Shown: piece by piece, positions 38,259 through 59,487 of the stretch
Position numbering within the stretch: position 1 is the first letter of the stretch
Layout of the letters: every line of letters begins with the position of its first letter
Source: Dyella sp. C11
Lineage (GTDB): Bacteria > Pseudomonadota > Gammaproteobacteria > Xanthomonadales > Rhodanobacteraceae
Direction of reading: 5' to 3'
Length of the DNA: 64,000 nt
NCBI RefSeq assembly: GCF_003121485.1
Contig: NZ_QAVX01000001.1
Span: 496,001-560,000 of the forward strand
Program-made: the position numbers and the translations under genes
Notes under the pieces: generated by a model
Databases searched by the model: none
Told to the model about the DNA's origin: nothing
Seen by the model: the letters and a program-made list of their open reading frames with translations, nothing else

Positions 38259-38774
38259 GTGCGTGAAAAGCATGGGGCATGGTCGGCGTTGTTCGCGGAG
38301 AAGGGCGCGACGCTAAGCAAATATTTCCTCCGGCGCGTGTCGCACCGCTGGGACGCGCAGGACCTGGTGCAGGAGGTCTATCTGCGCCTGCTGCGCATCG
38401 GGCCGGACGATGCGGCGAACATCCGCAGTCCCGAGGCTTACCTGTTCACCGTGGCCGCGAACCTGGTGAAAGAGCACGCCGTGCTTCGCCAGCAGCAGCC
38501 CTTGGGCAGCGATGAGCTGGATCAGGTGGTGGAACAGCTGGTGGCGCCCACCAACGTCGAAGCGGACATGGACAGCGCGCTGCGCAGCGAGCGTCTGGGC
38601 GTGTTGATCGACCGCCTGTCGCCCAAGTGCAAGGCCGTGCTGATCATGCATTACCGCGACGACATGTCGTATCGCGACATCGCCGAGTGCATGTCCATTT
38701 CCACGAACATGGTGAAGAAGTACATCGTGAAAGGCTTGGCGGCGTGCCGGCAAAGGATGGCCGACTATGAATGA
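38259..38774 (+). CDS. FecI-type ECF sigma factor
   Basis: The protein has 171 residues. Sigma region 2 is YFLRRVSHRWDAQDLVQEVYLRLLRI, followed by SPEAYLFTVAANLVKEHAVL. Region 4 is LSPKCKAVLIMHYRDDMSYR, with the DNA-reading helix around ISTNMVKKYIVKGL. The FecI subgroup serves iron or nutrient receptor genes. I prefer GTG at 38259, which has GGAGG 4 bases upstream; a GTG at 38244 is the alternative. It overlaps the anti-sigma gene by 8 bases. Its expected target is the STN receptor gene downstream. Confidence 0.88.
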   Translation: MREKHGAWSALFAEKGATLSKYFLRRVSHRWDAQDLVQEVYLRLLRIGPDDAANIRSPEAYLFTVAANLVKEHAVLRQQQPLGSDELDQVVEQLVAPTNVEADMDSALRSERLGVLIDRLSPKCKAVLIMHYRDDMSYRDIAECMSISTNMVKKYIVKGLAACRQRMADYE

Positions 38775-39882: not shown

Positions 39883-40010
39883 GAAAAGATTCATGCAATT
39901 GGCGGTACCCGGTTTCGCATCGATGGGCTCTTCAAAGGTATAGGCCGGCAAAAGATGCATCTGCATCGCGTGTCGGCCATTCCTTTACCCCACTCAGAGC
40001 TTCTCCCCAC

Positions 40011-42883: not shown

Positions 42884-44413
42884 ATGAAAGAACACGATCG
42901 TTACTCCGTTCACTTCCTCGGGTTGGTCGCCCTGTGGCTCGCCATGCTGGGCGTGGCTTGCGCGACGGATACCGCACCCGATGTCGTACTGCATGGCCAG
43001 CTGCAGGGCAGCGACAACCATACCTATCGCGAGGTGCCGTTCCAGGTGCCGGCGGGTGTGAACCGCATCACCGTGCAGTTCGAATACAGCGGCCGCGACG
43101 AACACACCACGGTGGATCTTGGGCTGGAGGGGCCGGAAGGTTTCCACGGCCAGCAGGGCTTGCGTGGATGGACGGGCGGTAGCAAGCAGCTCTTTACCGT
43201 GGGAGCCGTGGATGCCACGCCGTCGTTCGCGCCGGGGCCCATCCCGGCGGGACGTTGGTCGCTGCTGCTCGGCATACCCAATATCCGCCCGTCGTCCAAG
43301 GCAGACTTCACCGCGAAGATCTGGTTTGGCCATCCCGGCGATCCCGCGTGGTTGCCGACGGTGCTCAACCCGCCGTTGCACAAGGGGCCGGGCTGGTATC
43401 GCGGTGATCTTCACATGCATGGCGCGCATAGCGACGGCAGCTGCCCGACGCAGAGCGGTGATGCGCGCGCGCCATGTCCGCTTGTCTTCACGGTTGAGGA
43501 TGCCGCCAGGCGTGGACTCGACTTTATCGCGCTGAGCGACCACAACACCGTGTCGCAGGCCAACGACATTCGCGAGCTGCAGCCTTACTACGATCGGTTG
43601 CTGCTGATCCCTGCACGCGAAATCACCACGTTCCAGGGGCACGCCAACCTGTTTGGCACCACGGAGCCGCTGGATTTCCGCCTCGGCAGCGCCACGGTCC
43701 CTGATTGGAATACCTTGCTGACCCGCGCTGCCGCGTTGCACGGCGTGCTTTCCATCAACCATCCCATCCGCCCGAACGACGAAACCTGCATGGGCTGCGG
43801 CTGGACGCCGGAAAAGCCCGTGGACATGCACCTGGTACAGGCCATTGAGGTCGTCAACGGCATGGATGCACTGAGCCCCACCTACAGCGGCATTCCCTTC
43901 TGGCAGGAACAGTTGAGCAAGGGCTTCCATCTCACCGCCATTGGCGGCAGCGACAACCACAACGCGAAAGTGCCGCTACCCATGCCGGGTGGAAGTACGG
44001 CGATCGGTCTCCCGACCACCGTCGTGCACGCCAGCGACTTGTCGATGAAGGCCGTGCTCGACGCCATTCGCGAAGGCCACGTGTTTGTCGATGTGCAAGG
44101 TAGTCGCGACCGCCTTTTCGACATGACGGCACAGCAGGGCCATCAATCGGCAGGCATGGGCGATGCGTTAGGTGCGCCCGCCGGCAGCGTTGTTCACGTC
44201 ACCTTGCATGCAAGCGCCATGAACGGCGCGCATGTCGAAGCTATCGTGGACGGGAAGACCTATTCGCCGAAAAACGACTTGGCCATCCAGGGGGCGGCAC
44301 AGGCGCTGACATTCGATTGGCCCAGTGATGGCAAGCGCCACTGGATTCGCGCCAACGTGCGCGGGGCCGACAACGCGCTGTGGGTGGTGGGCAATCCGAT
44401 CTATATCAACTGA
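42884..44413 (+). CDS. exported PHP-domain metallohydrolase (CehA/McbA-like)
   Basis: The protein has 509 residues. The N-terminal hydrophobic segment (VHFLGLVALWLAMLGVACA) exports it. A beta-rich N-terminal domain (residues 30-160) precedes the PHP domain. Metal-binding motifs are GDLHMHGAHSDGS with His177 and His179, FIALSDHNTV, SINHP and GGSDNHN. PHP enzymes hydrolyse phosphate esters; the CehA group hydrolyses carbamate or other esters. It is the last gene of the sigma/anti-sigma/receptor set, and probably processes the ligand. The frame is open before 42884 but would run through the hairpin, so the ATG there is chosen. Confidence 0.85.
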   Translation: MKEHDRYSVHFLGLVALWLAMLGVACATDTAPDVVLHGQLQGSDNHTYREVPFQVPAGVNRITVQFEYSGRDEHTTVDLGLEGPEGFHGQQGLRGWTGGSKQLFTVGAVDATPSFAPGPIPAGRWSLLLGIPNIRPSSKADFTAKIWFGHPGDPAWLPTVLNPPLHKGPGWYRGDLHMHGAHSDGSCPTQSGDARAPCPLVFTVEDAARRGLDFIALSDHNTVSQANDIRELQPYYDRLLLIPAREITTFQGHANLFGTTEPLDFRLGSATVPDWNTLLTRAAALHGVLSINHPIRPNDETCMGCGWTPEKPVDMHLVQAIEVVNGMDALSPTYSGIPFWQEQLSKGFHLTAIGGSDNHNAKVPLPMPGGSTAIGLPTTVVHASDLSMKAVLDAIREGHVFVDVQGSRDRLFDMTAQQGHQSAGMGDALGAPAGSVVHVTLHASAMNGAHVEAIVDGKTYSPKNDLAIQGAAQALTFDWPSDGKRHWIRANVRGADNALWVVGNPIYIN

Positions 44414-44691: not shown

Positions 44692-45735
44692 ATGCAAGTT
44701 TCAAGCGTCCCTGGCGTGGCCAGGGCAGGGGAAAACCGTCGACACACTAGGTCTTGGGTGTGGCTGTGCCTGCTCGCGCTGTTTGCGTGGGCCAACGTGT
44801 CACTGGCTGCGCAAGATCCTCTGCCGTCGTGGAACGACGGCAGCACCAAGCAGCAGATCGAGAATTTCGTCCACAAGGTGACCACCACGGGCTCACCCGA
44901 CTTTGTCGCGCCGGAAAAGCGCATTGCCGTGTTCGACAACGACGGCACCTTGTGGGCCGAGCAGCCGGAGTATTTCGAAGGCTTCTTCGCGCTGGATCAG
45001 GTGAAGGCGATGGCACCGCAGCACCCGGAATGGAAGACCACCGAGCCGTTCAAATCCGCGCTGGCAGGTGACATGAAGGGTCTTGCTGCCACCGGTGAAA
45101 AGGGGGCGCTCGAATTGGTGGTCGCCACGCATTCGGGCATGACCACCGATGAGTTCGCGCGGAACGTGAACCAGTGGGTTTCGACCGCCCGCCACCCCAA
45201 GACGCATCGCGTATTCACCGAGATGGTCTACCAGCCGATGCTGGAGTTGCTGCACTACCTGCGCGACAACGGCTTCAAGACATACATCGTGTCGGGTGGC
45301 GGCCAGGACTTCATGCGCGCCTGGGTTCCCGCCGTTTACGGCATTCCGCCCGAGCAGATTGTCGGCAGCCAGGGCGAGTTGAAGTACGAGATGCAGAACG
45401 GCGCCCCGGTACTGGTGAAGCTGCCCACCGTGGCGCTGGTGAATGACGGCCCGGGCAAGCCCGTGGGTATCCAGCGCGCACTCGGCGTGAAACCCATCTT
45501 CGCCTTCGGCAATTCCGATGGCGATCAGCAGATGCTGGAGTGGACGGTCTCCGGTGACGGCGCACGCTTCGCCGGCATCGTTCATCACACGGACGCGGCG
45601 CGCGAGTGGTCATACGACCGCAATTCCAGCATTGGAAAGCTCGACAAGGCACTCGATGAGGCTACGGCCAAGGGCTGGACCGTGGTGGACATGAAGAATG
45701 ACTGGAAAGTGATCTACCCCGCTGAAAAGCAGTAG
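44692..45735 (+). CDS. exported HAD-family phosphatase
   Basis: The protein has 347 residues. A signal segment (SWVWLCLLALFAWANVSLAA) lies after a 20-residue basic N-terminus. HAD motif I is FDNDGTLW with Asp82 and Asp84. Motif II is in YIVSGGGQDFMR, and motif IV is FAFGNSDGDQQML. It resembles phosphoserine-phosphatase-like periplasmic HAD proteins that commonly neighbour sulfatases. The substrate is unknown. GGGAGC lies 6 bases before the ATG. The 278-base gap upstream (44414-44691) has no recognised gene or motif. Confidence 0.85.
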   Translation: MQVSSVPGVARAGENRRHTRSWVWLCLLALFAWANVSLAAQDPLPSWNDGSTKQQIENFVHKVTTTGSPDFVAPEKRIAVFDNDGTLWAEQPEYFEGFFALDQVKAMAPQHPEWKTTEPFKSALAGDMKGLAATGEKGALELVVATHSGMTTDEFARNVNQWVSTARHPKTHRVFTEMVYQPMLELLHYLRDNGFKTYIVSGGGQDFMRAWVPAVYGIPPEQIVGSQGELKYEMQNGAPVLVKLPTVALVNDGPGKPVGIQRALGVKPIFAFGNSDGDQQMLEWTVSGDGARFAGIVHHTDAAREWSYDRNSSIGKLDKALDEATAKGWTVVDMKNDWKVIYPAEKQ

Positions 45736-45834: not shown

Positions 45835-47502
45835 ATGTTTCGCCCGTGGCAGCGCAGCAGATTGTTGACATCCCTAAGCACGGTAGTCGCGACGGCATTG
45901 CTCGTCGTCGCTGCCGTGACTCTTCAACCGCCGGTGGCCAAGGCTCAGCCCGCGCAGGACCAGAGCCAGGACCAGAGCGACAACGGCAAGCCCAACATCC
46001 TCGTCATTTTCGGCGATGACGTGGGCCAGTCGAACATCAGTGCGTATTCGATGGGTCTGGTGGGCTATCGCACGCCCAACATCGATCGGATCGCCCGCGA
46101 GGGCATGATCTTCACCGACTATTACGCCGAGAACAGCTGTACGGCGGGCCGTTCGACCTTCATTACCGGCCAGACGGTATTGCGCACCGGTCTTTCCAAG
46201 GTCGGCATGCCGGGTGCAAAGGCGGGTCTGCAGGATCGCGACGTCACCATCGCGCAGGCGCTGAAGGGGCAAGGCTATGCCACGGCGCAGTTCGGCAAGA
46301 ACCACCTGGGTGACCGCGACGAATTCCTGCCGACCCGGCACGGCTTCGACGAATACTTCGGCAACCTCTACCACCTGAACGCCGAAGAAGAACCCGAGCG
46401 CCCGTATTGGCCGTCGAACGATCCCAACTTCCTCAAGGTGTACAACCCACGCGGCGTGATGCACACCTTCTCGGACGGCAAGATCCAGGATACCGGCCCG
46501 CTCAACGTCAAGCGCATGGAAACGATTGACGACGAAACCACGGGTGCCGCGATCGGGTACATCCAGAAGCAGGCACAGGCCAAGCAGCCGTTCTTCGTGT
46601 GGATGAACTTCACGCGCATGCACATCTTCACGCACGTGCGTCCGGAGTACATCGGCAAGGCGGGCCTGGGTAAAGGCCACGAATACGCCGACGGCATGTG
46701 GGAAATGGACCAGAACGTCGGCAAGCTGCTGAAGACGCTGGACGATGCGGGTATCACCAAGAACACCATCGTCATCTTCACCACCGACAATGGCCCGAAC
46801 TTCTTCACCTGGCCGGACGCCGCCAACACGCCGTTCCGCAGCGAGAAGGACTCCAACTGGGAAGGTGCCTTCCGCGTGCCGGCCATGATCCGCTGGCCGG
46901 GCCATATCCGTCCCAACACCGTGAGCAACGCGCTGATGTCGGGCCTGGACTGGTTCCCGACCCTGGTGGCGGCCGCTGGCGAAGGCGACATCGTCAACAA
47001 GCTGTTGCATGGCGACAGCATTGGCGGAAAGTCGTTCAAGGTGCATCTGGATGGCTACAACTTCCTGCCCTATTTGACGGGAAAAACGAACGTCAGGCCA
47101 CGCGACGAGTTCTTCTATTTCGACGATGACGCCGAACTGGTCGCCGTGCGTTGGGACCCGATGGAGCCCGGTGCGACCGTGCCTGATGCATGGAAGGCCG
47201 TATTCTGCGAGCAGCGCGCTCCGGGTGGTTTGCAGATCTGGATGGAACCGTTCACCTGCCTGCGCTTGCCCAAGCTCTACAACTTGCGCATGGACCCGTA
47301 CGAGCGTGCCGACATTGGTCCGACCACTGGCTACTACCGCTGGGAGACGGAAAATGCGTATGTCGCCATCGAGGGCAATATGCGTGCGGCGCGGTTCCTT
47401 GCCACGTTCAAGGACTATCCGCCGAGCCAGACGCCTGACTCGTTCACCATCGACAAGGCGGTCGAGGCCATGAAGGAAGACTTGCGCAAGCAAGGTAAAT
47501 AA
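45835..47502 (+). CDS. exported arylsulfatase-family protein
   Basis: This 555-residue sulfatase has a signal sequence (about 11-37). Metal-binding acids are at FGDDVGQSN (Asp61, Asp62). The maturation motif is SCTAGRSTFITGQ, with Cys102 to be converted to formylglycine. The proline of the canonical C-x-P-x-R is Ala here, a variant known in bacterial sulfatases. Other motifs are QFGKNHLGD and FTTDNGPN. An AGGAGG ribosome site lies 5 bases before the ATG at 45835. A formylglycine-generating enzyme or anSME is not encoded in the window. A 99-base gap separates it from the HAD gene, and a terminator follows. Confidence 0.9.
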   Translation: MFRPWQRSRLLTSLSTVVATALLVVAAVTLQPPVAKAQPAQDQSQDQSDNGKPNILVIFGDDVGQSNISAYSMGLVGYRTPNIDRIAREGMIFTDYYAENSCTAGRSTFITGQTVLRTGLSKVGMPGAKAGLQDRDVTIAQALKGQGYATAQFGKNHLGDRDEFLPTRHGFDEYFGNLYHLNAEEEPERPYWPSNDPNFLKVYNPRGVMHTFSDGKIQDTGPLNVKRMETIDDETTGAAIGYIQKQAQAKQPFFVWMNFTRMHIFTHVRPEYIGKAGLGKGHEYADGMWEMDQNVGKLLKTLDDAGITKNTIVIFTTDNGPNFFTWPDAANTPFRSEKDSNWEGAFRVPAMIRWPGHIRPNTVSNALMSGLDWFPTLVAAAGEGDIVNKLLHGDSIGGKSFKVHLDGYNFLPYLTGKTNVRPRDEFFYFDDDAELVAVRWDPMEPGATVPDAWKAVFCEQRAPGGLQIWMEPFTCLRLPKLYNLRMDPYERADIGPTTGYYRWETENAYVAIEGNMRAARFLATFKDYPPSQTPDSFTIDKAVEAMKEDLRKQGK

Positions 47503-47550
47503 GCCCAAGTACTCCGTGGCGGCGTGCCGTCGTGGAAATAGCGTTCGCAG

Positions 47551-47582: not shown

Positions 47583-47897
47583 GGCACTCGTTTTTTCCGG
47601 TCTCCATGAGGTGGCGTGGCGCCGCTTGCGCAAACGTCGGCAGCGCAAGGTTAGAGGTAAGGGTAAGGTCACCCATGACGCCGACCTACGCTTCATGGAA
47701 CGGATGATGCGGTTGGGAAATACGGAGACGATGACGCGGAAAGGCAGGGCAGATAGCCGACCCCGCGGATGTCGAAGGAAGCGGTTGGCGATGCACCATC
47801 CGTTTCCTGTTCCGAAGAATCCTTTCTTACTTAAGTATGGCTTTCGCGCGTGGATTCCTCTCTATACTCCGATGACATCCTGTTACGCGCGAGTTCC
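47583..47897. other. intergenic region before the MFS/aminopropyltransferase gene
   Basis: I see no convincing gene. Open frames here are Arg-rich and lack ribosome sites. A TATACT box at 47863-47868, 30 bases before the next ATG, is a candidate -10 element without a clear -35. Confidence 0.45.
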
Positions 47898-50420
47898 ATG
47901 CCTGCCATGAAGCCTCCCCGCGTTGGAAAACATGCCTTCGTGCCCGTACCGGTCGCCTCGCCGATGGCGCGATGGGCTGCTGCGTTGCTATTGGGGTCGG
48001 GCGCGGCATCGTTGGTATATCAACTGCTCTGGATCAAGCAGCTCTCGCTGGTGGTGGGTGTGGAGGTTTACGCCGTCACTATCGCGGTGAGCGCGTTCTT
48101 TGCCGGTCTCGCGCTCGGTGGCGCGTGGCTGGGGCGCGTGGCGGATCGCCTGGCGCATCCCCTGCGCATGTATGCGTGGCTTGAAGTGACCATTGCCGTG
48201 CTTGCCATCGCATGCACGGTTGCGCTCGCACACAGTGCTTCGCTGTTCGCCAACCTTGAGCAGCATGTTGGCGTGGCTGCGTGGTTGCTACCGTTTGTGC
48301 TGGTCGGTGTGCCCGCCATTGCCATGGGCGGAACGTTGCCGGTGCTGGTGCGCGCAAGCGCGGGCAGCAGCGTAGCTGCCACGGGTGGACGCTTGTATGC
48401 CGCCAATACGGCGGGTGCCATTGCCGGTGTATTGATTGCGCCTTTCCTGCTGATACCCGCGCTGGGTGTGCTGGGGGCTGCGCTGGCTGCTGCCGCCGTG
48501 AACATTTTGCTGGCGCTGGTGGCGTGGCTGCTGCGTCGCCGGGAAGCATCGTTACAGGTGGCCGAGAGTGTTGATCGCACCGCGACACATCGCCTGGCCC
48601 GCCTCGCGCTTGTTCTCTATGCCGTGGCCGGTGGCATTGCCCTCGGTTACGAGGTGATCTGGTCGCAGACGGTGGTTCAGTTCATGAGCACGCGCACGTT
48701 CGCGTTTGCCATGATGCTGGCGGTGTATCTGCTGGGCCTGATGCTGGGCAGCGTCGTCTACGCGCGCTTCGCCGACCGTGTGCGCGATGCATGGCTGGCT
48801 TTTGGCGTACTTATCGCCATGGCGGGTCTGGTGGCGCTGTTGCAGGTGAGTTTCCTTGGCGGCTGGTTGCCTGCATGGCAGGGTTATGCCGCGAGTGCTG
48901 TGACGTCGCTGACAGGGAGTCGCATGGCGGCGATGTGCGCGCGCTTCGCTGTTGCCGCGCTGGCCATGGTGTTGCTTCCGACGATGCTGCTTGGTGCGGC
49001 TTTCCCGGCGGTGCTTCGCCTTGCCGCGCAACGGGATCGCAGCGGCCAGGGCGTGGGTGCGGCAGTGGCGCTCAATACCTTGGGCGGCATCGCGGGCACG
49101 TCGTTGACCGGCTTCGTGCTGGTGCCGGCGTTTGGACTGGTGCGTTCGCTGGCGTTGCTGGCCATCGCGGCGTCTGCGGTTGGCCTGATCGCCGTCTTTG
49201 CCGGTTCGACGTCTCGCGGAAAGGCACGCTGGGTGGTTGCCGCCATGGGGGCGTGTGTCGTTCTGGCGGGGGTACTGCCGCCACCGCAGAAATTCGCCCA
49301 GTTGCTTTCGCAATCGCGCGGCGGTGACCTCACCTATTACGAAGAAAGTCGCGGCGGCACGGTGGCGGTGTTGGCGCAAGGGCAGGGCGACAACCGCTTC
49401 CATCGTTTGTACATTCAGGGCGTATCCAACTCCGGCGATACGCTGCCATCGCAGCGGTACATGCGTCTGCAGGCATTGCTGCCGCTGATCATCCATCGCA
49501 GCGAGCCGCGTTCGGCGTTGGTCATCGGTTTCGGCACGGGCATTACCGCGGGTGCGTTGTCGCAGTATCCGGGCCTCACGACGCGCGTGGTGGCTGAGTT
49601 GCTGCCAGCGGTGGTTCGTGCGGCGCCGCAGTTTCAAGGCAACTATGCAGCGAACCGCGATCCAGGTTTGGAGATTCGCCTTCGTGATGGTCGTCGCGAA
49701 TTGCTTGCCAGCAACCAGACCTACGACATGATCACGCTGGAACCACCGCCGCCCTCGGCAGCAGGCGTGGTGAACCTGTATTCGCGCGATTTCTATCAGC
49801 TGGCGGCCAGGCGGCTCGCACCCGGCGGCATTCTCGCGCAGTGGTGGCCCATTCCTACCCAGAACGACGAGGACTCGCGCGCCATGGTGCGTGCGTTCCT
49901 GGATGTGTTTCCGCACGCCACGCTGTGGACCACCGAGCTGCACGAGATGCTGCTGGTGGGTTCGATGGAGCCGATCGAACTTGACGCCCCGGAGATCGAG
50001 CGGCGCTTCAACCAGCCAACCGTGGCCAAGGCGTTGGGTGACGTGGGCGTGGCGACGCCGGCGGCGTTGCTTGCCACCTGGGTGAGCGATCGCGCGGGGC
50101 TGGAGACTTATGCGGGCAACGTGCCGCCGGTGACCGACGATCACCCGAGCATTGAATACGCCACCTGGGTACGTCGCAATGAAATCGTGCGCGTGCTGCC
50201 AGAGCTTGTCGCGCTGCGAACCGAGCCGCCGTTGCGTGGCGCCAGCCCCGAATTGATCGAGGCGATGCATCGGCAGCGCGATGTGCTTTTCACGTTCTAC
50301 GCCTCCGGCCTTGCCGCCTACCAGGGTGATCGCGACCAATGGTCCGAAGCATTGGGGCTGGTGATGCAAGCCGATGGGCAGAACCCGTACTACCGCTGGA
50401 TTGCCGGTGGCGGTCCGTAA
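47898..50420 (+). CDS. fused MFS-like/spermidine synthase-like protein
   Basis: The protein has 840 residues. The N-terminal half (about 20-450) is membrane-embedded with about 12 spans (LLLGSGAASLVYQLLWIKQL is typical). The C-terminal half is a SAM-binding aminopropyltransferase fold: YYEESRGGTVAVL, LYIQGVSNSGDTLPSQRYMR, VIGFGTGITAG and RLRDGRRELLASNQTYDMI. In true spermidine synthases the acidic D-S-T/S-D-P loop follows. Here, at about residues 608-620, it reads TLEPPPPSAAGV, so both catalytic aspartates are missing. Calling it a spermidine synthase would therefore be unsafe. It is 31 bases from the moxR gene and is likely in the same operon. Starts at 47898 and 47907 are both possible. Confidence 0.85.
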   Translation: MPAMKPPRVGKHAFVPVPVASPMARWAAALLLGSGAASLVYQLLWIKQLSLVVGVEVYAVTIAVSAFFAGLALGGAWLGRVADRLAHPLRMYAWLEVTIAVLAIACTVALAHSASLFANLEQHVGVAAWLLPFVLVGVPAIAMGGTLPVLVRASAGSSVAATGGRLYAANTAGAIAGVLIAPFLLIPALGVLGAALAAAAVNILLALVAWLLRRREASLQVAESVDRTATHRLARLALVLYAVAGGIALGYEVIWSQTVVQFMSTRTFAFAMMLAVYLLGLMLGSVVYARFADRVRDAWLAFGVLIAMAGLVALLQVSFLGGWLPAWQGYAASAVTSLTGSRMAAMCARFAVAALAMVLLPTMLLGAAFPAVLRLAAQRDRSGQGVGAAVALNTLGGIAGTSLTGFVLVPAFGLVRSLALLAIAASAVGLIAVFAGSTSRGKARWVVAAMGACVVLAGVLPPPQKFAQLLSQSRGGDLTYYEESRGGTVAVLAQGQGDNRFHRLYIQGVSNSGDTLPSQRYMRLQALLPLIIHRSEPRSALVIGFGTGITAGALSQYPGLTTRVVAELLPAVVRAAPQFQGNYAANRDPGLEIRLRDGRRELLASNQTYDMITLEPPPPSAAGVVNLYSRDFYQLAARRLAPGGILAQWWPIPTQNDEDSRAMVRAFLDVFPHATLWTTELHEMLLVGSMEPIELDAPEIERRFNQPTVAKALGDVGVATPAALLATWVSDRAGLETYAGNVPPVTDDHPSIEYATWVRRNEIVRVLPELVALRTEPPLRGASPELIEAMHRQRDVLFTFYASGLAAYQGDRDQWSEALGLVMQADGQNPYYRWIAGGGP

Positions 50421-50451
50421 TCCACACCGAGCAGGGAGCCGCGAGGACACC

Positions 50452-51432
50452 ATGAGCGCACGAGATACCATTGCGACACTGCAGGCGCGGATGGAGGAAT
50501 CCATCATCGGCCAGCGCGACCTTATCCGTCAGATGATCGTCGGCCTGCTGGCCAACGGTCACCTTCTGTTGGAGAGCCTTCCCGGGCTGGCCAAGACGCG
50601 CGCGGTGAAGAGCATGGCGAAGAACCTGGATGCGGATATGCGCCGCATCCAGTTCACGCCCGACCTGCTTCCGTCGGACATCACCGGCACCGAAGTGCTG
50701 CACCAGCAGGGCGGGCAGAACGTGTTCCAGTTCCAGCCGGGACCGATCTTCGGCAACGTCATCCTCGCCGATGAAATCAATCGCGCACCGGCCAAGGTGC
50801 AGGCGGCCCTGCTGGAGGCGATGGAGGAACGCCAGATCACGGTCGCCGGCACCACGCACAAGATGCCCGATCTGTTCATCGTGATGGGCACGCAGAACCC
50901 CATCGAGCAGGAGGGAACCTATCCGTTGCCCGAAGCCCAGCTGGATCGCTTCCTGATGAAGGTGCTGGTGGATTATCCGGATAAGGACAGCGAAATCGGT
51001 GTGCTCGAACTCGTACGCGGCGAAGAGGTGGGTGCCTCGGCATCCAAGGGCACCGAGTCGCGCGCGCCTATCGAACCCGCCAGCGTGTTCGATGCACGTG
51101 GGGAAATCCATGCGATACATGTGGCGCCCGCCATCGAGCAATACGTGATGGCGCTGGTCGATGCGACGCGGCATCCGGCCAACTACGACAAGCAACTGGC
51201 CACATGGATCCAGGTGGGTTCCAGTCCGCGCGGCGGCATTTCGCTGGAGCGAACGTCGCGCGTCCATGCATGGCTGGAAGGCCGCGACCACGTCACGCCG
51301 GACGACGTGCGCGCGATGGTTCATCCGGTGCTTCGCCACCGCATCATTCTTTCGTACGACGCCAGTGCCGAAGGCGTTCATGCCGATCAGGTGATCGACA
51401 AGATCCTGGAACTGGTGGCGGTGCCGGCCTGA
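50452..51432 (+). CDS. MoxR-family AAA+ ATPase
   Basis: This 326-residue cytoplasmic ATPase acts as a chaperone with VWA-domain partners. The Walker A segment is ESLPGLAKT (41-49), of the MoxR GxPGxxKT kind. Walker B is VILADEINRAPAKVQAALLE. Sensor 1 is FIVMGTQNPIEQEGTYPLPE, and the C-terminal lid includes SSPRGGISL. MoxR ATPases assemble metal cofactors or membrane protein complexes. It is the first of six genes in the canonical order MoxR, DUF58, DUF4381, VWA, VWA/TPR, BatD. GAGG precedes the ATG. Confidence 0.93.
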   Translation: MSARDTIATLQARMEESIIGQRDLIRQMIVGLLANGHLLLESLPGLAKTRAVKSMAKNLDADMRRIQFTPDLLPSDITGTEVLHQQGGQNVFQFQPGPIFGNVILADEINRAPAKVQAALLEAMEERQITVAGTTHKMPDLFIVMGTQNPIEQEGTYPLPEAQLDRFLMKVLVDYPDKDSEIGVLELVRGEEVGASASKGTESRAPIEPASVFDARGEIHAIHVAPAIEQYVMALVDATRHPANYDKQLATWIQVGSSPRGGISLERTSRVHAWLEGRDHVTPDDVRAMVHPVLRHRIILSYDASAEGVHADQVIDKILELVAVPA

Positions 51433-51442
51433 GGCCCGTGCG

Positions 51443-52393
51443 ATGACTGACGTGGCCGCAGGCGATATCGGTACGGTGTATGTCACTCCCGCGCACCTGG
51501 CGCGCATGGAGTACGACGCACGCCGCCTGCGCGCCACGCCGCATCGACCGCATCACAGCATCCTTGCCGGACGGCATGCGTCGCGCCTGCGTGGGCGCGG
51601 ACTCAATTTCGAAGAAATACGCGCCTACGTGCCGGGCGACGATCTTCGCCATCTCGATTGGAAGGCATCGTCACGCGTGGGGCACGCGCTGGTGCGTTCG
51701 TATACCGAGGAGCGCGACCGTCCCGCGTTGTTCGTGGTGGATCAGCGCATCTCCATGTTCTACGGCACGCGTCGCGCGATGAAATCCGTGGTGGCGGCGG
51801 AGGTGGCGGCGTTGTGTGCGTGGATGTCGTTCCAGGCCGGCGATCGGGCCGGCGCCGTGGTGTTCGACGACAACCACATCGAAAGCATTCGCGCGCATCG
51901 CAGTCGCTCGCGCGTGCTGTCGATGCTGGGAGCGTTGGCGCGCAGCAATCAGTCGTTGCATGCGGACAGTCCCGTGCGGGTGAACCCGGGACAGCTGGAT
52001 GCCGCGTTGCGCTCGGCGCTTCATCTGGCAACGCACGACTACCTGGTCTGCATCGTCAGTGATTTTCTGGGCGCGAACGAGACCACGCTTCAGCTCATCC
52101 GGGAACTGGCCACACACAACGATGTGGTGGCTGCGCTGGTGTTTGATCCTTCGGCGCGGTCCGTGCCCAGTGGCGGCAAGATCGTCGTGACCGAAGGTGA
52201 GCTTCAGGTGGAGCTGGACTTCGATCGAAAAAATATCCGCGAGCCGTTGAGCGCGATGTTCGACGAGCGCCTGAAGCAGACCGTGGATCTGGTGCAGCGC
52301 TGCGGCGTACCCATGCTCGCCATCGACACGGAGCAGCCGACGCTGTTGCAGGTGGGGCGTTTGCTGGGTCATTTCGCGCTGCGGGGGAGGTAG
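51443..52393 (+). CDS. DUF58 domain protein
   Basis: The protein has 316 residues. The DUF58 signature is RGRGLNFEEIRAYVPGDDLR, continuing HLDWKASSRVGHALVRSYTEERDRP in part. A VWA-like fold follows (PALFVVDQRISMFYGT, HDYLVCIVSDFLGANE). It is soluble, with no membrane span, unlike many longer DUF58 proteins. DUF58 proteins are partners of MoxR. A 10-base gap separates it from moxR. Confidence 0.88.
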   Translation: MTDVAAGDIGTVYVTPAHLARMEYDARRLRATPHRPHHSILAGRHASRLRGRGLNFEEIRAYVPGDDLRHLDWKASSRVGHALVRSYTEERDRPALFVVDQRISMFYGTRRAMKSVVAAEVAALCAWMSFQAGDRAGAVVFDDNHIESIRAHRSRSRVLSMLGALARSNQSLHADSPVRVNPGQLDAALRSALHLATHDYLVCIVSDFLGANETTLQLIRELATHNDVVAALVFDPSARSVPSGGKIVVTEGELQVELDFDRKNIREPLSAMFDERLKQTVDLVQRCGVPMLAIDTEQPTLLQVGRLLGHFALRGR

Positions 52394-52396
52394 CGC

Positions 52397-52900
52397 ATGC
52401 TCCTGTTTCCCGCCAAGACGCCCATGGCCTCGATCGCGGATCTCAAGGACATTCCCGCGCCCGCTCCCGTGTCGTACATGCCGCAAGCGCCGGGCTGGTG
52501 GGTGGTCGGCGGACTGTTGCTGTTCGCGTTGCTGGTGTTTGCAGTGCTGAAGCTGCGGACATGGTGGCGCAATCGTTACCGCCGGGAAGCCCAGGCTGAG
52601 CTTGCCCTCATCGAACAATCCCTCAACGACACGCGCACACGGCCCGAAGCACTGGCCGCCCTGCCTGCGCTGGTGAAACGCACGGTGCTGGCCTGGGCAC
52701 CGCGAACGACGGTGGGGCCGATGAGCGGCGACGCCTGGCTTCGCTATCTCGACAGCACCTATCCGAAGGGTGGCTTCGTGCAAGGACCCGGTCGCCATCT
52801 CGACACACTGGCTTACGGGCACGGCGACATTGGCAAGGGCGAACTCGCAGCGCTGTTGACGTTGCTGCATCAATGGATCGATGACCATGTTGCAGCTTGA
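52397..52900 (+). CDS. DUF4381 single-span membrane protein
   Basis: The protein has 167 residues. A short Pro-rich N-terminus (LKDIPAPAPVSYMPQAPGWW) leads into one membrane span at about 36-54. A cytoplasmic helical domain follows (RREAQAELALIEQSLND, LVKRTVLAWAPR). Proteins of this DUF occur in MoxR/VWA operons and are thought to be part of the membrane complex. It is 3 bases after the DUF58 stop and overlaps the next gene by 20 bases. Confidence 0.82.
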   Translation: MLLFPAKTPMASIADLKDIPAPAPVSYMPQAPGWWVVGGLLLFALLVFAVLKLRTWWRNRYRREAQAELALIEQSLNDTRTRPEALAALPALVKRTVLAWAPRTTVGPMSGDAWLRYLDSTYPKGGFVQGPGRHLDTLAYGHGDIGKGELAALLTLLHQWIDDHVAA

Positions 52901-53909
52901 GCATCCCTGGCTGCTGACCTTGCTGCCGCTGCCTTTGCTGGTGTGGTGGTTGCTGCCACCCTATGGCGAACGCACGCGTGCCATCCGCGTACCGTTCTTC
53001 GACGAACTGGCGCAGGCGACCGGGCAAACACCGGCGCGCGGCGCGGTGGTGCTGCGGGGCAATTGGTTGCGCCGTGTGCTGGCGCCGCTGTGCTGGGTGC
53101 TGGTGGTGCTGGCGCTGGCTGGCCCGCAACGGTTGGAGCCGCCCATCGAGCGCACCGAATCAGCACGCGATCTGCTGCTGGCCATTGACCTGTCGGGTTC
53201 CATGGCGACGCCCGACTTCCTGGATCCGCAAGGCGAGCGTATCGATCGCCTGAGTGCAGTGAAAGGCGTGGTGGATGACTTCATTGCCCATCGCACCACC
53301 GATCGCATCGGTCTCATCGTCTTCGGTACCAATGCGTTTCCGCAGGCGCCGCTCACGCTCGATCACACTGCCGTTCGGGAATTGCTGGATGAACTTCGCG
53401 TGGGCATGGCCGGTGAACAGACAGCCATCGGTGACGCCATCGGCGTGGCGGTGAAGATGACCGAGCACTCGCAACAGCGCGAGCGCGTGTTGATCCTGCT
53501 CACGGACGGCAACGACACGGCGGGCCGCATTCCCGCGGAAAAGGCTGCCGAGATCGCCAAGGCCAGTCACATCGTGGTCGACACCATCGGTATCGGCGAC
53601 CCCCATGCCAAGGGCGAGAACCGCGTGGATCTGGACGCGCTCAAGCGCATCGCCGTGGCCACCGGTGGACGCAGCTTCCGCGGCGAGAACCGCGAACAAC
53701 TGGCCGACATCTATGCGTTGCTCGATCGCATGACGCCGAGCAAGGTGAAGCATTCCATCTTCCGTCCCAAGGTGAAGCTCTACTACGTGCCGCTGGGTGC
53801 GGCGCTGCTTCTGATGCTCGCTTATCACCTGCTGATGCTGGGCGTGCTGTCGCCGCTGGCGCGTCGTCGCACGGCATCCACGCTGGCCCCTGGCGAGCAG
53901 GGAGGCTGA
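52881..53909 (+). CDS. VWA-domain membrane protein, BatA-like
   Basis: The protein has 342 residues. Two N-terminal membrane spans (about 8-26 and 66-81) flank a short loop, a VWA domain follows (100-290), and another span lies near 295-315. The metal-ion-dependent adhesion site is intact: DLSGS at 103-107, then the Thr and Asp motifs (GEQTAIGDAIGVAV, ILLTDGNDTAG). The VWA domain is therefore probably periplasmic and metal-binding. A second ATG 6 bases later is an alternative start. Confidence 0.9.
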   Translation: MTMLQLEHPWLLTLLPLPLLVWWLLPPYGERTRAIRVPFFDELAQATGQTPARGAVVLRGNWLRRVLAPLCWVLVVLALAGPQRLEPPIERTESARDLLLAIDLSGSMATPDFLDPQGERIDRLSAVKGVVDDFIAHRTTDRIGLIVFGTNAFPQAPLTLDHTAVRELLDELRVGMAGEQTAIGDAIGVAVKMTEHSQQRERVLILLTDGNDTAGRIPAEKAAEIAKASHIVVDTIGIGDPHAKGENRVDLDALKRIAVATGGRSFRGENREQLADIYALLDRMTPSKVKHSIFRPKVKLYYVPLGAALLLMLAYHLLMLGVLSPLARRRTASTLAPGEQGG

Positions 53910-53910
53910 G

Positions 53911-55530
53911 ATGGATCAAGGCTTCCATTTCATCCGGCCGCTGTGGCTCCTGCTGTTGCCGCTGGGGCCGTTGCTGCTGTGGTGGTGGCAGCGGCGCAAC
54001 GATCCGCTGCAGCGCTGGAAAGGCATGATCGCCCCGCACCTGCTCACGCATCTCGTCGTGGGTGGCGGGCAGGGTTGGCGGCCTCGGCCGATCCATCTGG
54101 TCTGTGCCGTCATCGTTATTGGCAGCATCGCCTGTGCCGGGCCGACGTGGGAGCTGGAATCGCCACCGTTCGCGGAAGACCGTGCGCCCATGATGGTGGC
54201 GGTGGACCTGTCCCCTGCGATGAATGCCATGGATGTATCGCCGACACGCCTGGAGCGTACCAAGCAGAAGGTGCGCGACCTGATGGCGTTGCGCGCCGGC
54301 GGCCGTACCGGTCTTATCGTCTACACCAATACGGCGCACATGGTGTTGCCACCTACTGACGACGCCGCGCTGATGGAGATGTTCCTGTCAGCGCTGAGCA
54401 CCGATCTGCTTCAGGCCAGGGGGCAGAATGCGGGGGCGGCGCTTGCCGTGGCCGATCGCCTGCTGAATGCGGAGCCCGATCCCGGCACCATCGTGTTCTT
54501 CACCAGCGGGTTCGACGACTCGCAGATTCCCGCCTTCGTGGCGCATCGTCAGCATTCGCGGCAACAAGTGCTGATGCTGGCGGTGGGCACCACGCGCGGT
54601 GGGCCGCTGCGTGCAGCGAACGGTTCGGTGCAGACCGGCACGGATGGTTCGCCAGTAGTTGCCAAGCTCGATGACGATGCGCTGCAACGGCTCGCGTCGC
54701 AGGCGCATATACCACTCGCGAGCATCACCTCAGGCAACGATGACATGCAGTGGGTGCAGCGCGAAGCCGTGCATCACCTGAAGATCGTGAGCGACAAGGC
54801 GAATACGCACTGGAAGGAATACGGCTATTACCTGTGCTATCCCCTCGTGCTGATCGCCTTGTTCTGGTTCCGCCGAGGCTGGATGGTGCGCTGGGTGTTC
54901 GTGCTGGGTTTCGTCGGACTGGGGGCCATGCCGGCGCCGGCCGCCGCGGCGGGTTGGAACGTGGCCGACTGGTTCTTCACTCCTGACCAGCAGGGCCGCT
55001 GGTACTACGAACACCGCGACTTCGCCAAGGCGGCGGAGCATTTCCAGGATCCGGCCTGGAAGGGATGGGCGCTCTACCAGCATGGCCGCTATGACGATGC
55101 GCGGAAGATCTTCGAAACATTGCCGGGCCCGGATGCCAAGTTCATGACGGGTAACAGCTACGCGCACCAGTTCCAATACGAAGAGGCCAAGGACGCCTAC
55201 AACGAAGCGTTGCGCATGAAGCATCCCTTCCCGGAAGCGGAAGCCAACCTGCGCCTGATGGTGCAGCTGATGAAGCAGCGCGAGAGCGTGCCGCCCGAGG
55301 ACGAAGACGACGAATACCGGCCGGACGAAGTGAAACAGGACAAGGAAGGCGCGAAGGGCAAGGGCACCACGAAAGTGATGGGCAAGCGCTCGGTGCAGGT
55401 GCCCGCCGATGTATGGATGCGCAACCTCAGCGTGTCGCCCGCGGATTTCCTGCGGACCAAGTTCAGTATCGAGAGTGGACAGCCGCCGCCGTCTGCGCCC
55501 GCGCCGGCATCGTCGGGAGCGAGGCCATGA
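53911..55530 (+). CDS. VWA- and TPR-domain membrane protein, BatB/BatC fusion-like
   Basis: The protein has 539 residues. Spans at about 11-27 and 61-77 precede a VWA domain (95-290). Two more spans follow (about 310-350). A TPR region lies at 365-455 (WYYEHRDFAKAAEHFQDPAW, FQYEEAKDAYNEALRMKHPF), and a charged Lys/Glu-rich tail carries PPEDEDDEYRPDEVKQDKEG. The MIDAS reads DLSPA (99-103) rather than DxSxS, so metal binding may be lost. It combines the roles of BatB and BatC. It is 1 base after the preceding gene and overlaps batD-like by 4. Confidence 0.88.
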   Translation: MDQGFHFIRPLWLLLLPLGPLLLWWWQRRNDPLQRWKGMIAPHLLTHLVVGGGQGWRPRPIHLVCAVIVIGSIACAGPTWELESPPFAEDRAPMMVAVDLSPAMNAMDVSPTRLERTKQKVRDLMALRAGGRTGLIVYTNTAHMVLPPTDDAALMEMFLSALSTDLLQARGQNAGAALAVADRLLNAEPDPGTIVFFTSGFDDSQIPAFVAHRQHSRQQVLMLAVGTTRGGPLRAANGSVQTGTDGSPVVAKLDDDALQRLASQAHIPLASITSGNDDMQWVQREAVHHLKIVSDKANTHWKEYGYYLCYPLVLIALFWFRRGWMVRWVFVLGFVGLGAMPAPAAAAGWNVADWFFTPDQQGRWYYEHRDFAKAAEHFQDPAWKGWALYQHGRYDDARKIFETLPGPDAKFMTGNSYAHQFQYEEAKDAYNEALRMKHPFPEAEANLRLMVQLMKQRESVPPEDEDDEYRPDEVKQDKEGAKGKGTTKVMGKRSVQVPADVWMRNLSVSPADFLRTKFSIESGQPPPSAPAPASSGARP

Positions 55531-56879
55531 GGGTCTGGCTGCTGTGCATGCTGGCGTTGCTGGCCATGGCGGCACATGCGGAACAGCCGGCATCTTCGTC
55601 CTCGGCTGCTGCACCGCCGCTGCCCATTCGCGTGCGCGTCCACCAGGAGCCTGCGGGCGCCCTGATGCAGGGTGAAACCACACGCATCGTGGTGGACCTG
55701 CTCACCACCGACTTCTTCACCGATGCTCCCGTACTGCCCGAGTTGCACGTGGATGGCGCCTATCTTTCGCTGTCCGACGAAACACCCGGCCACCTGGTGG
55801 AAACCGTGGATGGCCAGACGTGGTCTGGCGTATCGCGCACGTATCTCATCACGCCGTTGATGTCGGGCGAGATGGACATACCCTCGTTCGAGATTGCGGC
55901 CCACCTTGGCGCGCAGAGCACACCCGTCACGGTGCAGACGCAGCCGCTGACGCTGAAGGTGCGCGCGCTGGTGTTGCCGGCGGGTGTCACCGAGGCATTG
56001 ATTGCGCGCTCGCTGACCGTCACGCAGACCATCACGCCCAAGGACGAGGGCCTGCATGTGGGCGACACGGTGACCCGCCGCATCGAGATCACCGCCGAAG
56101 GCGCACCCGCGATGATGCTTCCGCCCACCACGTTCGCCGTCGTGGATGGATTGACGCTGTATCCCGCATCCCCGGTGGTGCGCGATGCGGTGGACAATCA
56201 TGGCGGGTTTGTTGGCGGCAATCGCGTGGATACGGCGAGCTATGTGATCGATCATCGCGGTCGCTACACGTTGCCGCCGCTCACCGTGCGCTGGATGGAC
56301 AGCCGCACCCGCGAGTGGCGCGAGAGCACGGTCCCTGCGGTGCAATTCCATGCCTGGTGGGGCTCGCCGGACAAACCGCGCTTTGCGCTGCCGCAACAGG
56401 GTTTCATGCCGCGGTTGATCGAATGGCTGTCCAGTGATGTGGGCATCGCGGTGATGGTGCTTGCGGTGCTGGCATGGCTGGCCTGGTACTTCCGAACCTG
56501 GTGCGTGAAGCAATGGCGTGCGTGGAAGGCCTGGCGTTATCGCCGTCGTCATTCGGAGCGCGTGGCGTTCCATGCAGTGACGCGGCGGCGTCACGCGACG
56601 TCTGCCAGAGCCGTATCCGACGTCGTGGATGCCTGGGTGCGACGTGCAGCGGAAGACGGTGCGCCGCCCAGTATCCATGAATGGGCCGACCGTTTCGGCG
56701 ATGAACGGCTGCATGCCCAATGGAACGCCGTGCAGGACACGCTGTACGGAAAGGGCGGCGCCGCATGGTCTGCTTCGGAGCTCGTCGATGCGCTTGTGTC
56801 GGTGCGAAAGCAATGGAAGCACGCAGGCCGGCGATGGCAGCCGCAGGCGGCACTGCCACCGTTGAATCCCGCGTCGTGA
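55527..56879 (+). CDS. BatD-like exported beta-sandwich membrane protein
   Basis: The protein has 450 residues. It has a signal peptide (MRVWLLCMLALLAMAAHAEQ), then Ig-like beta domains with the BatD pattern (RVHQEPAGALMQGETTRIVV, ITPLMSGEMDIPSFEIAAH, GLHVGDTVTRRIEITAEGAP). A membrane span is at about 310-330. A basic cytoplasmic tail follows (WRAWKAWRYRRRHSERVAFH). BatD proteins are partners of the VWA proteins in MoxR operons. The start overlaps the previous stop (ATGA). Confidence 0.82.
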   Translation: MRVWLLCMLALLAMAAHAEQPASSSSAAAPPLPIRVRVHQEPAGALMQGETTRIVVDLLTTDFFTDAPVLPELHVDGAYLSLSDETPGHLVETVDGQTWSGVSRTYLITPLMSGEMDIPSFEIAAHLGAQSTPVTVQTQPLTLKVRALVLPAGVTEALIARSLTVTQTITPKDEGLHVGDTVTRRIEITAEGAPAMMLPPTTFAVVDGLTLYPASPVVRDAVDNHGGFVGGNRVDTASYVIDHRGRYTLPPLTVRWMDSRTREWRESTVPAVQFHAWWGSPDKPRFALPQQGFMPRLIEWLSSDVGIAVMVLAVLAWLAWYFRTWCVKQWRAWKAWRYRRRHSERVAFHAVTRRRHATSARAVSDVVDAWVRRAAEDGAPPSIHEWADRFGDERLHAQWNAVQDTLYGKGGAAWSASELVDALVSVRKQWKHAGRRWQPQAALPPLNPAS

Positions 56880-57018: not shown

Positions 57019-59487
57019 ATGGGTCGTTCCAGAAAGAGCCATGGCAAACGCTCTGGCAAGGCTGCGCCTGCGCGGCCGACGCCGGCAGCATCGCCGTCCG
57101 GCGAGCGACGCCACCTCTGGTGGTTGCCGCTGGGCGTCGCCGTGCTGGTGCTGGTGTTGCTGGGCTTCTGGTGGCTTCGCATGCCGTCGCCGGGCGTTGC
57201 CACCACGCCCGTGGCATCGGTGGCAACGGCGCCCACGCCGGCATCGCCGGCATCGCCGGCACTGCCACCTGCACATTACGTGGGCGCCCAGGCGTGCGCC
57301 TCATGCCATGCCAAGGAAACGCAGGCCTGGCAACAATCCCATCATGCGTTGGCCATGCAGGTGGCGGACGACAAGACCGTCGAAGGCCATTTTGATGGCG
57401 CGTTGAAGCAGGATGGTTCGACCGCCAGCTTCCTCAAGCGCGATGGCAAATACTTCGTGAAGACGGATGGCCCCGATGGCAAGCCCGCCGAATTCGAAGT
57501 GAAGTACACCTTCGGCGTGTATCCCCTGCAGCAATACCTTGTCGCCTTTCCCGACGGACGCCTGCAGACGCTGCGCACGTCCTGGGATGCACGCCCCGCT
57601 GCCGAAGGCGGCCAGCACTGGTTCAACATGTACCCCGGCGACCACATCGATGTGCACGACACGCTGCATTGGACACGCCTGAACCAGAACTGGAACTACA
57701 TGTGCGCGGATTGCCATTCCACGAACGTGCAGCGCAATTACGATCTGGCGAGCAATACGTTCAAGACGCAGTGGAACGAGATCAACGTGGCCTGCGAAGC
57801 CTGTCACGGACCAGGTTCACGCCACATGGAATGGTCCAATGCAAGCGAGGAAAAGAAGCGCGCTGATCCGTCGATGGGACTGACCATCGCGCTGAACGAA
57901 CGCAAGGGCGTGCACTGGATTCCCAACCCAGCGACCGGCAATCCGTCACGCAGTGCGCCCATGGATTCACATCGCGAGGTGGAAACCTGCGCGGTCTGTC
58001 ATTCGCGCCGGGGCATCATCGCCAAGGACACGGCGCCCACCGGGCGCCTGATGGACACGCACGATCCCACGCTGCTGGTCGAAGGTCGCTACCACGCCGA
58101 TGGCCAGCAGCTGGACGAGGTGTACGTGTATGCCTCGTTCCTGCAGAGCCGCATGTACGCCAAAGGCGTGACGTGCAGCGACTGCCACGACCCACACACT
58201 GGCCAGACGCGCGCGCAAGGCAATGCGTTGTGCGAAAGCTGCCATACGCCAGCCGTGTACGATACCGCCGCCCACCACATGCACAAGGAAGGCAGTGCAG
58301 GCTCGCAGTGCGTGGCGTGCCACATGCCGTCGAAGAATTACATGGTGATCAACGCACGCCCGGATCACTCCATTCGCGTGCCGCGGCCAGACCTCACGTT
58401 GCAGTACGGCGTGCCCAACGCCTGCGCCAACTGCCATGCCGACAAGGGCGCGCAGTGGGCAGCCGATGCCATCGCCAAGGCGCATGGGCCCGAGCGCAAG
58501 GGTTATCAACACTTCGTCGAGGCACTGGATGCCGCGCGCCACGGGAAGCCCGGTGCGGCAGCGCTGCTCACCACGCTGGCAGCCGACGCGACGTCGCCGA
58601 TCATTGCCCGTGCCACCGCCGTCAACGAGCTCAGTCACTACGCGAGCCCGGATGCGGTGCCGACCATCCAGTCTGCGCTGGGCGATGCCGATCCACTCAT
58701 GCGCGTTGCCGCACTGGATGCCTTGCTCGCCTTTCCGCCGGAAGTCCGTGGGCCCATGGCTGCGCCGCTGGCCGACGATCCCGTGCTTGATGTGCGGGTG
58801 AAAGCGGGCCGCGCGTTGGCCAGCGTTCCCGATGCGCAGCTCAATGCCACGCAGCGCGAACAACGCGACCGCGCCTTTGCGATCTATCAGCAGTCGCAGG
58901 AGGCCGTGGCCGATCGTCCGGAGTCGCACTTCGACCTGGGCATCGTCGACATGGAGCGCGGCGATACCGCGGCGGCCGAACAGGCGTTCCGCCAGGCGCT
59001 GAAGCTGCAACCGGATTTCGTGCCGGCGTACATCAACCTGTCGGACCTGTATCGCGGAACAGGGCACGAAGCGGAAGCGGAAAACACCATCGACGAAGGC
59101 CTGAAGACGGTGCCGAACAATGCCAGCCTGCTGCACGCCAAAGGGCTTTCGTTGATTCGCCAGAACGAAGCGCAGGAAGCGTTGCCGTGGCTCGAACGCG
59201 CACACCGTGCGGAGCCTTCCAACGCACGTTTCGCCTATGTGTACGGCGTGGCGCTGAATTCCGCGGGCAAGGTCGATCAGGCACACCAGGTGTGGGAAGC
59301 CAGCTTGCTCAACGCACCGTACGACCCCTCGCTGCTCTACGCGCTGGCCGGCGCCGAACGCGACGCGGGCCACAAGGACAAGGCGCGCGAATATGCCGAA
59401 CGCCTGGTCGCCGTGGCACCGCGTTCCCGCGATGCGCAGGAGCTTCTGCAGAGCCTGGGCGGCAGCTCCATGCCCGCCTTCCACTGA
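57019..59487 (+). CDS. octaheme cytochrome c with HEAT-like and TPR repeats
   Basis: The protein has 822 residues. A basic N-terminus and one membrane span (about 34-53) anchor it to the inner membrane facing the periplasm. Eight CxxCH heme motifs follow between about 92 and 475: CASCH, CADCH, CEACH, CAVCH, CSDCH, CESCH, CVACH and CANCH. Next come HEAT-like helices (about 500-610; ARATAVNELSHYASPDAVPT) and TPR repeats (about 630-810; HFDLGIVDMERGDTAAAEQA). Such multihaem proteins accept or pass electrons, or hold oxidoreductase activity. GGGGAGAGAGGG precedes the ATG. It lies 139 bases after the BatD-like gene. Confidence 0.9.
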   Translation: MGRSRKSHGKRSGKAAPARPTPAASPSGERRHLWWLPLGVAVLVLVLLGFWWLRMPSPGVATTPVASVATAPTPASPASPALPPAHYVGAQACASCHAKETQAWQQSHHALAMQVADDKTVEGHFDGALKQDGSTASFLKRDGKYFVKTDGPDGKPAEFEVKYTFGVYPLQQYLVAFPDGRLQTLRTSWDARPAAEGGQHWFNMYPGDHIDVHDTLHWTRLNQNWNYMCADCHSTNVQRNYDLASNTFKTQWNEINVACEACHGPGSRHMEWSNASEEKKRADPSMGLTIALNERKGVHWIPNPATGNPSRSAPMDSHREVETCAVCHSRRGIIAKDTAPTGRLMDTHDPTLLVEGRYHADGQQLDEVYVYASFLQSRMYAKGVTCSDCHDPHTGQTRAQGNALCESCHTPAVYDTAAHHMHKEGSAGSQCVACHMPSKNYMVINARPDHSIRVPRPDLTLQYGVPNACANCHADKGAQWAADAIAKAHGPERKGYQHFVEALDAARHGKPGAAALLTTLAADATSPIIARATAVNELSHYASPDAVPTIQSALGDADPLMRVAALDALLAFPPEVRGPMAAPLADDPVLDVRVKAGRALASVPDAQLNATQREQRDRAFAIYQQSQEAVADRPESHFDLGIVDMERGDTAAAEQAFRQALKLQPDFVPAYINLSDLYRGTGHEAEAENTIDEGLKTVPNNASLLHAKGLSLIRQNEAQEALPWLERAHRAEPSNARFAYVYGVALNSAGKVDQAHQVWEASLLNAPYDPSLLYALAGAERDAGHKDKAREYAERLVAVAPRSRDAQELLQSLGGSSMPAFH

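Follow-up and report, generated by a model that had tools for sequence, protein, structure and literature searches.

The window, by which we mean the whole 64,000-nucleotide stretch of Dyella sp. C11 DNA that was analysed, carries a gene for an octaheme c-type cytochrome with a helical-repeat arm. Upstream of it lie genes for an arylsulfatase, a HAD-type hydrolase and a CehA/McbA-type metallohydrolase, as well as a block of MoxR and Bat genes (Table 1). This last block comprises MoxR, DUF58, DUF4381, BatA, BatB and BatD-like genes, some of these names being provisional. The cytochrome gene follows the sulfatase gene at a distance of 9.5 kb, and a terminator-like hairpin behind the sulfatase gene (at 47550) suggests that the two are on separate transcripts. 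Further upstream (38244-42809) are genes read by eye as ECF sigma, FecR and TonB-receptor-like, whose position ahead of the CehA/McbA, HAD and sulfatase genes points to a cluster for regulated uptake. The original prediction for this DNA made no mention of the sulfatase, which proved to be the recurrent partner of the cytochrome.

Table 1. Features of the cytochrome locus, in window positions.
Feature	Position	Strand	Basis or remark
CehA/McbA-type metallohydrolase, start approximate	42884..44413	+	NF038032 E 8.5e-78
Exported HAD-type hydrolase	44692..45735	+	HAD in 16/88 loci
Arylsulfatase, 555 aa, proposed client	45835..47502	+	PF00884 E 7.6e-54; G000 match at C11:541991-542980
Sulfatase signature CTAGR, residue 102 the cysteine for conversion	46138..46152	+	Motif reading
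Fused MFS/spermidine synthase	47850..50420	+	Between sulfatase and cytochrome only in Dyella, 3/88 loci
MoxR, DUF58, DUF4381, BatA, BatB and BatD-like genes	50449..56879	+	Adjoining only in Dyella, 3/88 loci
Octaheme c-type cytochrome with HEAT and TPR repeats, 822 aa	57019..59487	+	Translation, Pfam, relatives, AlphaFold2
Lone hydrophobic segment behind basic N-terminal tail, likely inner-membrane anchor	57112..57174	+	Sequence, by eye
Eight-heme core, OcwA/MccA fold, residues 83-492	57265..58494	+	Profile and fold comparison
Heme 2 motif CADCH, residues 229-233, candidate active-site heme	57703..57717	+	Inferred: aligned with five-coordinate OcwA heme 2
HEAT-like repeats, ~residues 493-605	58495..58833	+	Pfam, AlphaFold2
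TPR repeats, ~residues 606-815	58834..59463	+	Pfam, AlphaFold2, fold search

Architecture and conservation of the cytochrome

Translation and Pfam confirmed what had been read from the DNA, a chain of 822 residues with eight CxxCH motifs, HEAT-like repeats and TPR repeats. The first residues of the CxxCH motifs are 93, 229, 259, 324, 386, 405, 431 and 469, and every one of the 16 cysteines lies inside one of them. TPR families matched far over their cut-off and HEAT_2 barely so (29.4 vs 27.7 bits), with further matches to Cytochrome_C554, Cytochrome_C7 and Paired_CXXCH_1. There is only one hydrophobic segment, near the N-terminus (~residues 32-52). AlphaFold2 gave a model for residues 80-822 with 81 aligned family members (mean pLDDT 93.8, pTM 0.93).

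Relatives of the cytochrome were found at E 0.001 in 31/61 related genomes, a count that includes a more distant subfamily, and in 147 plasmid records. In all, 448 genome stretches held a relative, and the best 80 of these, together with 8 plasmid loci picked from 20 among the 147 records, made up the 88 loci analysed below. All of the 80 genome relatives (best 80 of 448) have eight CxxCH motifs at a near-constant spacing of ~137/30/60-70/62/19/26/38, with a third gap that reaches 91. This near-fixed arrangement shows that the eight-motif architecture is not due to chance. The motifs are conserved in homologues; a lack of such conservation had been proposed as a sign against electron transfer. 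An earlier set of open reading frames (n = 37) contained 36 sequences with eight motifs and one (L025) with seven. A shorter octaheme subfamily within the same order (L028-L034, in G034, G044, G047, G049, G055, G056 and G058) likewise has eight CxxCH motifs but differs in heme spacing, and has a sulfatase nearby at 0/7 loci.

Outside the motifs, histidines 109, 217, 269, 393, 419, 422 and 450 are each kept in at least 80 of the 81 sequences aligned. With eight hemes and seven such histidines, one heme may lack a distal histidine. Methionines 379 and 442 are invariant in the same 81 sequences, and methionine as a heme ligand is likewise conceivable. Mean conservation is highest in the heme core (0.65), compared to 0.51 in the TPR and 0.49 in the HEAT region, and the core holds many invariant polar residues. 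The conserved motifs, and the arm seen by Pfam and AlphaFold2, support the view taken at the outset of a heme redox protein with docking-type repeats. Current annotation describes members of this widespread family merely as 'tetratricopeptide repeat protein' or 'multiheme c-type cytochrome'.

Structural relatives of the heme core

Fold searches with the full-length cytochrome matched only TPR and other helical-repeat proteins, and the heme core was therefore folded separately (mean pLDDT 92.8, pTM 0.88). Its closest match was OcwA (PDB 6i5b), a nonaheme reductase on the Thermincola cell surface, which shares the fold (VIA Z 21.1, 319 aligned residues; Foldseek E 1.7e-12) and is also related by sequence profile (E 2.4e-21). 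Hemes 1-4 of the cytochrome align with OcwA hemes 1-4, and hemes 5-8 with OcwA hemes 6-9. The cytochrome lacks an equivalent of OcwA heme 5, the NrfA-type site, in keeping with eight motifs rather than nine hemes. The two also differ in that the cytochrome has its HEAT-TPR arm where the OcwA type has a three-helix bundle, and in the sulfatase neighbours.

Other multiheme proteins matched less closely. MccA, the octaheme sulfite reductase (4rkm, 4rkn), has eight hemes too and gave a VIA Z of 9.4 over 280 residues. The undecaheme cytochrome of Carboxydothermus ferrireducens (6qvm; VIA Z 13.6 over 272 residues, profile E 2e-10) differs in having more hemes and in being listed as an S-layer cytochrome. 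NrfA-type enzymes scored ~Z 5-6 (VIA). Cytochrome c554, NrfA and octaheme nitrite reductase, which had been suggested as fold relatives, were indeed matched, but at a greater distance than OcwA and MccA. HAO, an octaheme enzyme with a P460 cross-link and a fold of its own name, was not among the listed best fold matches, and its absence there is no evidence against kinship.

MccA has copper-binding cysteines at its active site and holds one heme by a long-spaced Cx15CH motif, and in NrfA and octaheme nitrite reductase the catalytic heme sits on CxxCK. In the cytochrome we found no MccA-type copper-site cysteines, no Cx15CH motif and no CxxCK motif, as the eight CxxCH motifs use up every Cys. 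By superposition, the modelled heme core is of the OcwA/MccA type. OcwA has nine hemes with open sites at hemes 2 and 5, and its heme 2 is a five-coordinate active-site heme (PMC6703420). The same paper places the active site of MccA at heme 2, gives it no counterpart of OcwA heme 5, and describes both proteins as catalytic. Heme 2 of the cytochrome (C229) is a candidate active site because it aligns with this five-coordinate, active OcwA heme.

Genes that recur beside the cytochrome

A relative of the window sulfatase lies within ~10 kb of the cytochrome gene in 44/88 loci, and in the other 44 no such relative is within reach. In 27 genomes hand-picked from the 80 genome loci, 15 had a sulfatase near the cytochrome, compared to 1.02 expected from sulfatase counts, and none of 200,000 simulations reached 15. 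Annotated plasmid neighbourhoods had an arylsulfatase nearby in 7/7. The HAD hydrolase, where present (Table 1), accompanies sulfatase and cytochrome. Proteins with DUF1254/DUF1214, DUF2092 and DUF3604 also recur by the cytochrome, in 5-6 loci each (for example L133:12325-13833, L070:8322-9107 and L042:12671-14761, respectively).

The MoxR, Bat and DUF58 genes flank the cytochrome in 3/88 loci, all of them in Dyella. Assembly by the MoxR system, which the original prediction had drawn from the BatD-like neighbour, is thus left unsupported. At the loci without a sulfatase, the neighbours (71 proteins examined) had no family in common, and one extra sulfatase was found among them. Comparison of these loci also showed no candidate-maturase family, besides the cytochrome itself, that recurs near the cytochrome gene.

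Sulfatase maturation in the host genome

FGE, the formylglycine-generating enzyme of the SUMF1 type (PF03781), uses a cysteine pair and copper/O2 chemistry, while anSME is a radical-SAM sulfatase-maturating enzyme (TIGR03942) with a CxxxCxxC motif. Type I sulfatases require formylglycine, for whose formation PMC3920027 describes two systems, FGE and anSME. PMC6189696 likewise attributes it to FGE or anSME, and mentions an additional maturation system in E. coli, the enzyme of which had not been identified.

The Dyella sp. C11 genome encodes at least three sulfatases with a Cys motif. It has three PF03781 proteins, all without the catalytic cysteine pair of FGE. Two of them look EgtB-like by eye, and the third joins TPR repeats to an FGE-like domain (L051, G000:C2:109940-110761). 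The genome gave no match to anSME.

Distribution of the cytochrome, FGE and anSME

Within Dyella, the cytochrome was present in 15/20 genomes and the sulfatase in exactly those 15. Among the 61 related genomes, where the comparison covered the cytochrome and the FGE motif (no mismatch allowed), 20 have a close sulfatase. Eighteen of these have the cytochrome without the FGE motif, one (G048) has FGE without the cytochrome, one (G054) has both and none has neither. Weaker sulfatase matches show Cys motifs in four genomes with the cytochrome (G038, G040, G051 and G059), and no sulfatase signature in six cytochrome-free ones (G027, G031, G034, G039, G044 and G050).

A second sample comprised 299 genomes of the phylum and overlapped slightly with the first, as it also contained Dyella sp. 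C11 and several of its 61 relatives. Here 30 genomes had the cytochrome, 53 the sulfatase (E 1e-30), 53 the FGE motif and 15 an anSME over the curated cut-off. FGE absence was judged by one motif pattern with one mismatch tolerated, and a few FGE calls may be due to chance because a reversed control pattern matched ~13/299 genomes. Left out before counting were seven genomes with only sub-cut-off anSME matches, one sub-cut-off match in G223, and one hit to the FGE pattern, in G225, whose sequence does not look like FGE. Cytochrome and sulfatase co-occur strongly (both in 25 genomes, cytochrome only in 5, sulfatase only in 28, neither in 241; p 4e-17). In G102 and G301, which have the cytochrome, a sulfatase was found neither in the genome at E 1e-30 nor in the ~20 kb around the cytochrome gene.

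The 53 sulfatase genomes divided into 15 with the cytochrome only, 20 with FGE only, 5 with anSME only, 6 with cytochrome and anSME, 4 with cytochrome and FGE, and 3 with none, these last having only weak sulfatase matches. A close sulfatase occurred in 41/299 genomes, and none of the 41 was without a candidate (the cytochrome alone in 13, FGE alone in 14, anSME alone in 4, the cytochrome plus anSME in 6, the cytochrome plus FGE in 4). Within the 53 sulfatase genomes, cytochrome and FGE tend to exclude one another (both in 4, the cytochrome and no FGE in 21, FGE and no cytochrome in 20, neither in 8; Fisher p 7.8e-5). The effect persisted with each genus counted once (p 0.0076) and was not significant with each family counted once (p 0.10), and descent therefore accounts for part of this avoidance.

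A shared gene slot and its sulfatases

We scored the genes near close sulfatases, meaning those listed at E 1e-100 or better with about four candidates scored per genome, an incomplete list of at least 77 genes. A candidate lay within 12 kb of 44 of these: the cytochrome for 20, FGE for 17 and anSME for 7. No listed gene (0/77) had two kinds of candidate within 12 kb, and 33/77 had none. G152 and G275 each have one sulfatase by the cytochrome and another by anSME. On an R. leguminosarum plasmid one sulfatase adjoins the HAD and cytochrome genes, with a further sulfatase near FGE, and in G192, a genome with both cytochrome and FGE, the sulfatase adjoins FGE instead. A tree of 67 sulfatases implies 15 changes of partner, at least 12 of them forced by well-supported branches.

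The sulfatases linked to the cytochrome were all Cys-type, both in this balanced set (20/20) and in a wider one (50/50 scored, from 57 matches of which seven fragments were left unscored for Cys/Ser). Those linked to FGE were Cys-type in 17/17, and those linked to anSME were Ser-type in 5/7. Ser-type (STAGR) kin directly adjoin anSME genes in G241, G279, G359, G339 and G365 (L234-L236, L239 and L240). The cytochrome-linked sulfatases span subfamilies (CxAxR of ~530 aa and CxPxR of 800-900 aa), and four Dyella genomes (G002, G003, G007 and G011) have a second CTAGR sulfatase copy near the first.

As c-type heme proteins assemble outside the cytoplasm, exported clients would be expected if the cytochrome were a maturase. 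By a hydrophobicity heuristic, a signal-like N-terminus was present in 20/20 cytochrome-linked sulfatases, compared to 14/17 of those linked to FGE. It was present in 42/50 of the wider set, where start codons and edges are less certain.

Discussion

We consider it fairly probable that the cytochrome, as an octaheme oxidoreductase anchored in the membrane and facing the periplasm, takes over from FGE or anSME the maturation of Cys-type sulfatases. To the fuller proposal we give an even chance: a new formylglycine system free of O2 and SAM, in which the cytochrome oxidises the cysteine of an exported sulfatase in the periplasm and has been swapped repeatedly with FGE and anSME. Genome comparison supports substitution for FGE/anSME more firmly than it does the predicted heme chemistry: what the data show is the linkage of the genes, their complementary distribution, the common gene position, the restriction to Cys-type sulfatases and the fold. 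Counting against the proposal are the loci and sulfatase genes without a linked partner (44/88 and 33/77), the reliance on one motif for FGE absence, the lack of significance at family level, the four genomes with both cytochrome and FGE (among them G192), and the cytochrome without a sulfatase in G102 and G301.

How might such a maturase work? The sulfatase would be exported by its signal peptide, as the hydrophobicity heuristic supports, and the HEAT-TPR arm would keep the unfolded client next to the heme core. The cysteine of the CxA/PxR signature could then bind at the open face of heme 2, a site suggested by the OcwA alignment. Loss of two electrons and two protons would give a thioaldehyde, to be hydrolysed to formylglycine and H2S, while the remaining hemes would pass the electrons to a periplasmic acceptor; with the electrons drained in this way, O2 would not be required. 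We know of no precedent for heme oxidation of a thiol to a thioaldehyde. Among the open-licence PMC papers listed we found none linking a multiheme cytochrome with sulfatase maturation, and the sole one with both formylglycine and a c-type cytochrome was a review (PMC5573963).

Alternatively, the cytochrome could be a redox enzyme of the sulfatase pathway that acts on the sulfatase product, or on a compound imported by the same cluster, which we think unlikely. Its linkage with sulfatases and the exported HAD hydrolase would fit, as would the catalytic nature of OcwA and MccA and the abundance of invariant polar residues in the heme core. However, such an enzyme predicts neither FGE or anSME in the same slot nor a lack of Ser-type clients, and the several sulfatase subfamilies among the partners argue against one common product. 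The HEAT-TPR arm might instead point to a helper only, a chaperone or electron sink for a maturase encoded elsewhere, and the additional maturation system reported for E. coli (PMC6189696) would be in line with this. We judge this improbable, as no other candidate-maturase family recurs and the neighbours at sulfatase-free loci are mutually unrelated.

The close match to the OcwA fold would also suit a general OcwA-type conduit or terminal reductase whose linkage to sulfatases is accidental clustering. The excess of sulfatases at 15/27 loci over the 1.0 expected, and a distribution complementary to FGE and anSME, leave this idea with only a slim chance. Finally, the gene order in Dyella was the basis for a docking platform assembled by MoxR/Bat, as originally predicted, to which we give very little credence. 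Such assembly was rejected because these genes adjoin the cytochrome in so few loci, all from Dyella.

If our maturase reading is right, it would add a sulfatase maturation system that uses heme chemistry instead of copper/O2 or radical SAM, and would place maturation in a new compartment, the periplasm. Dyella and similar bacteria, which use Cys-type sulfatases while lacking FGE and anSME, would thereby be accounted for. The reading would also give a function to a widespread cytochrome family and perhaps a tool to install aldehyde tags. The fold is known; the system and role would be new, depending on the role being right. No description of the HEAT/TPR-octaheme architecture or of this role was found in the open-licence PMC papers searched.

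Compared to FGE, the cytochrome occupies the same slot by the same sulfatase family and, like FGE, is linked to Cys-type sulfatases only. The two are unrelated in sequence: PF03781 was not among the listed Pfam matches of the cytochrome (best 25 of 31), and with no non-heme Cys it lacks the catalytic cysteine pair. In addition, FGE, unlike the cytochrome in the balanced set, is also linked to clients without a signal-like N-terminus (3/17). The enzyme anSME takes the same slot elsewhere (7/77 listed genes) and is likewise unrelated, as the radical-SAM CxxxCxxC motif is impossible in a protein with no non-heme Cys. In contrast to those of the cytochrome, its linked sulfatases are mostly Ser-type (5/7).
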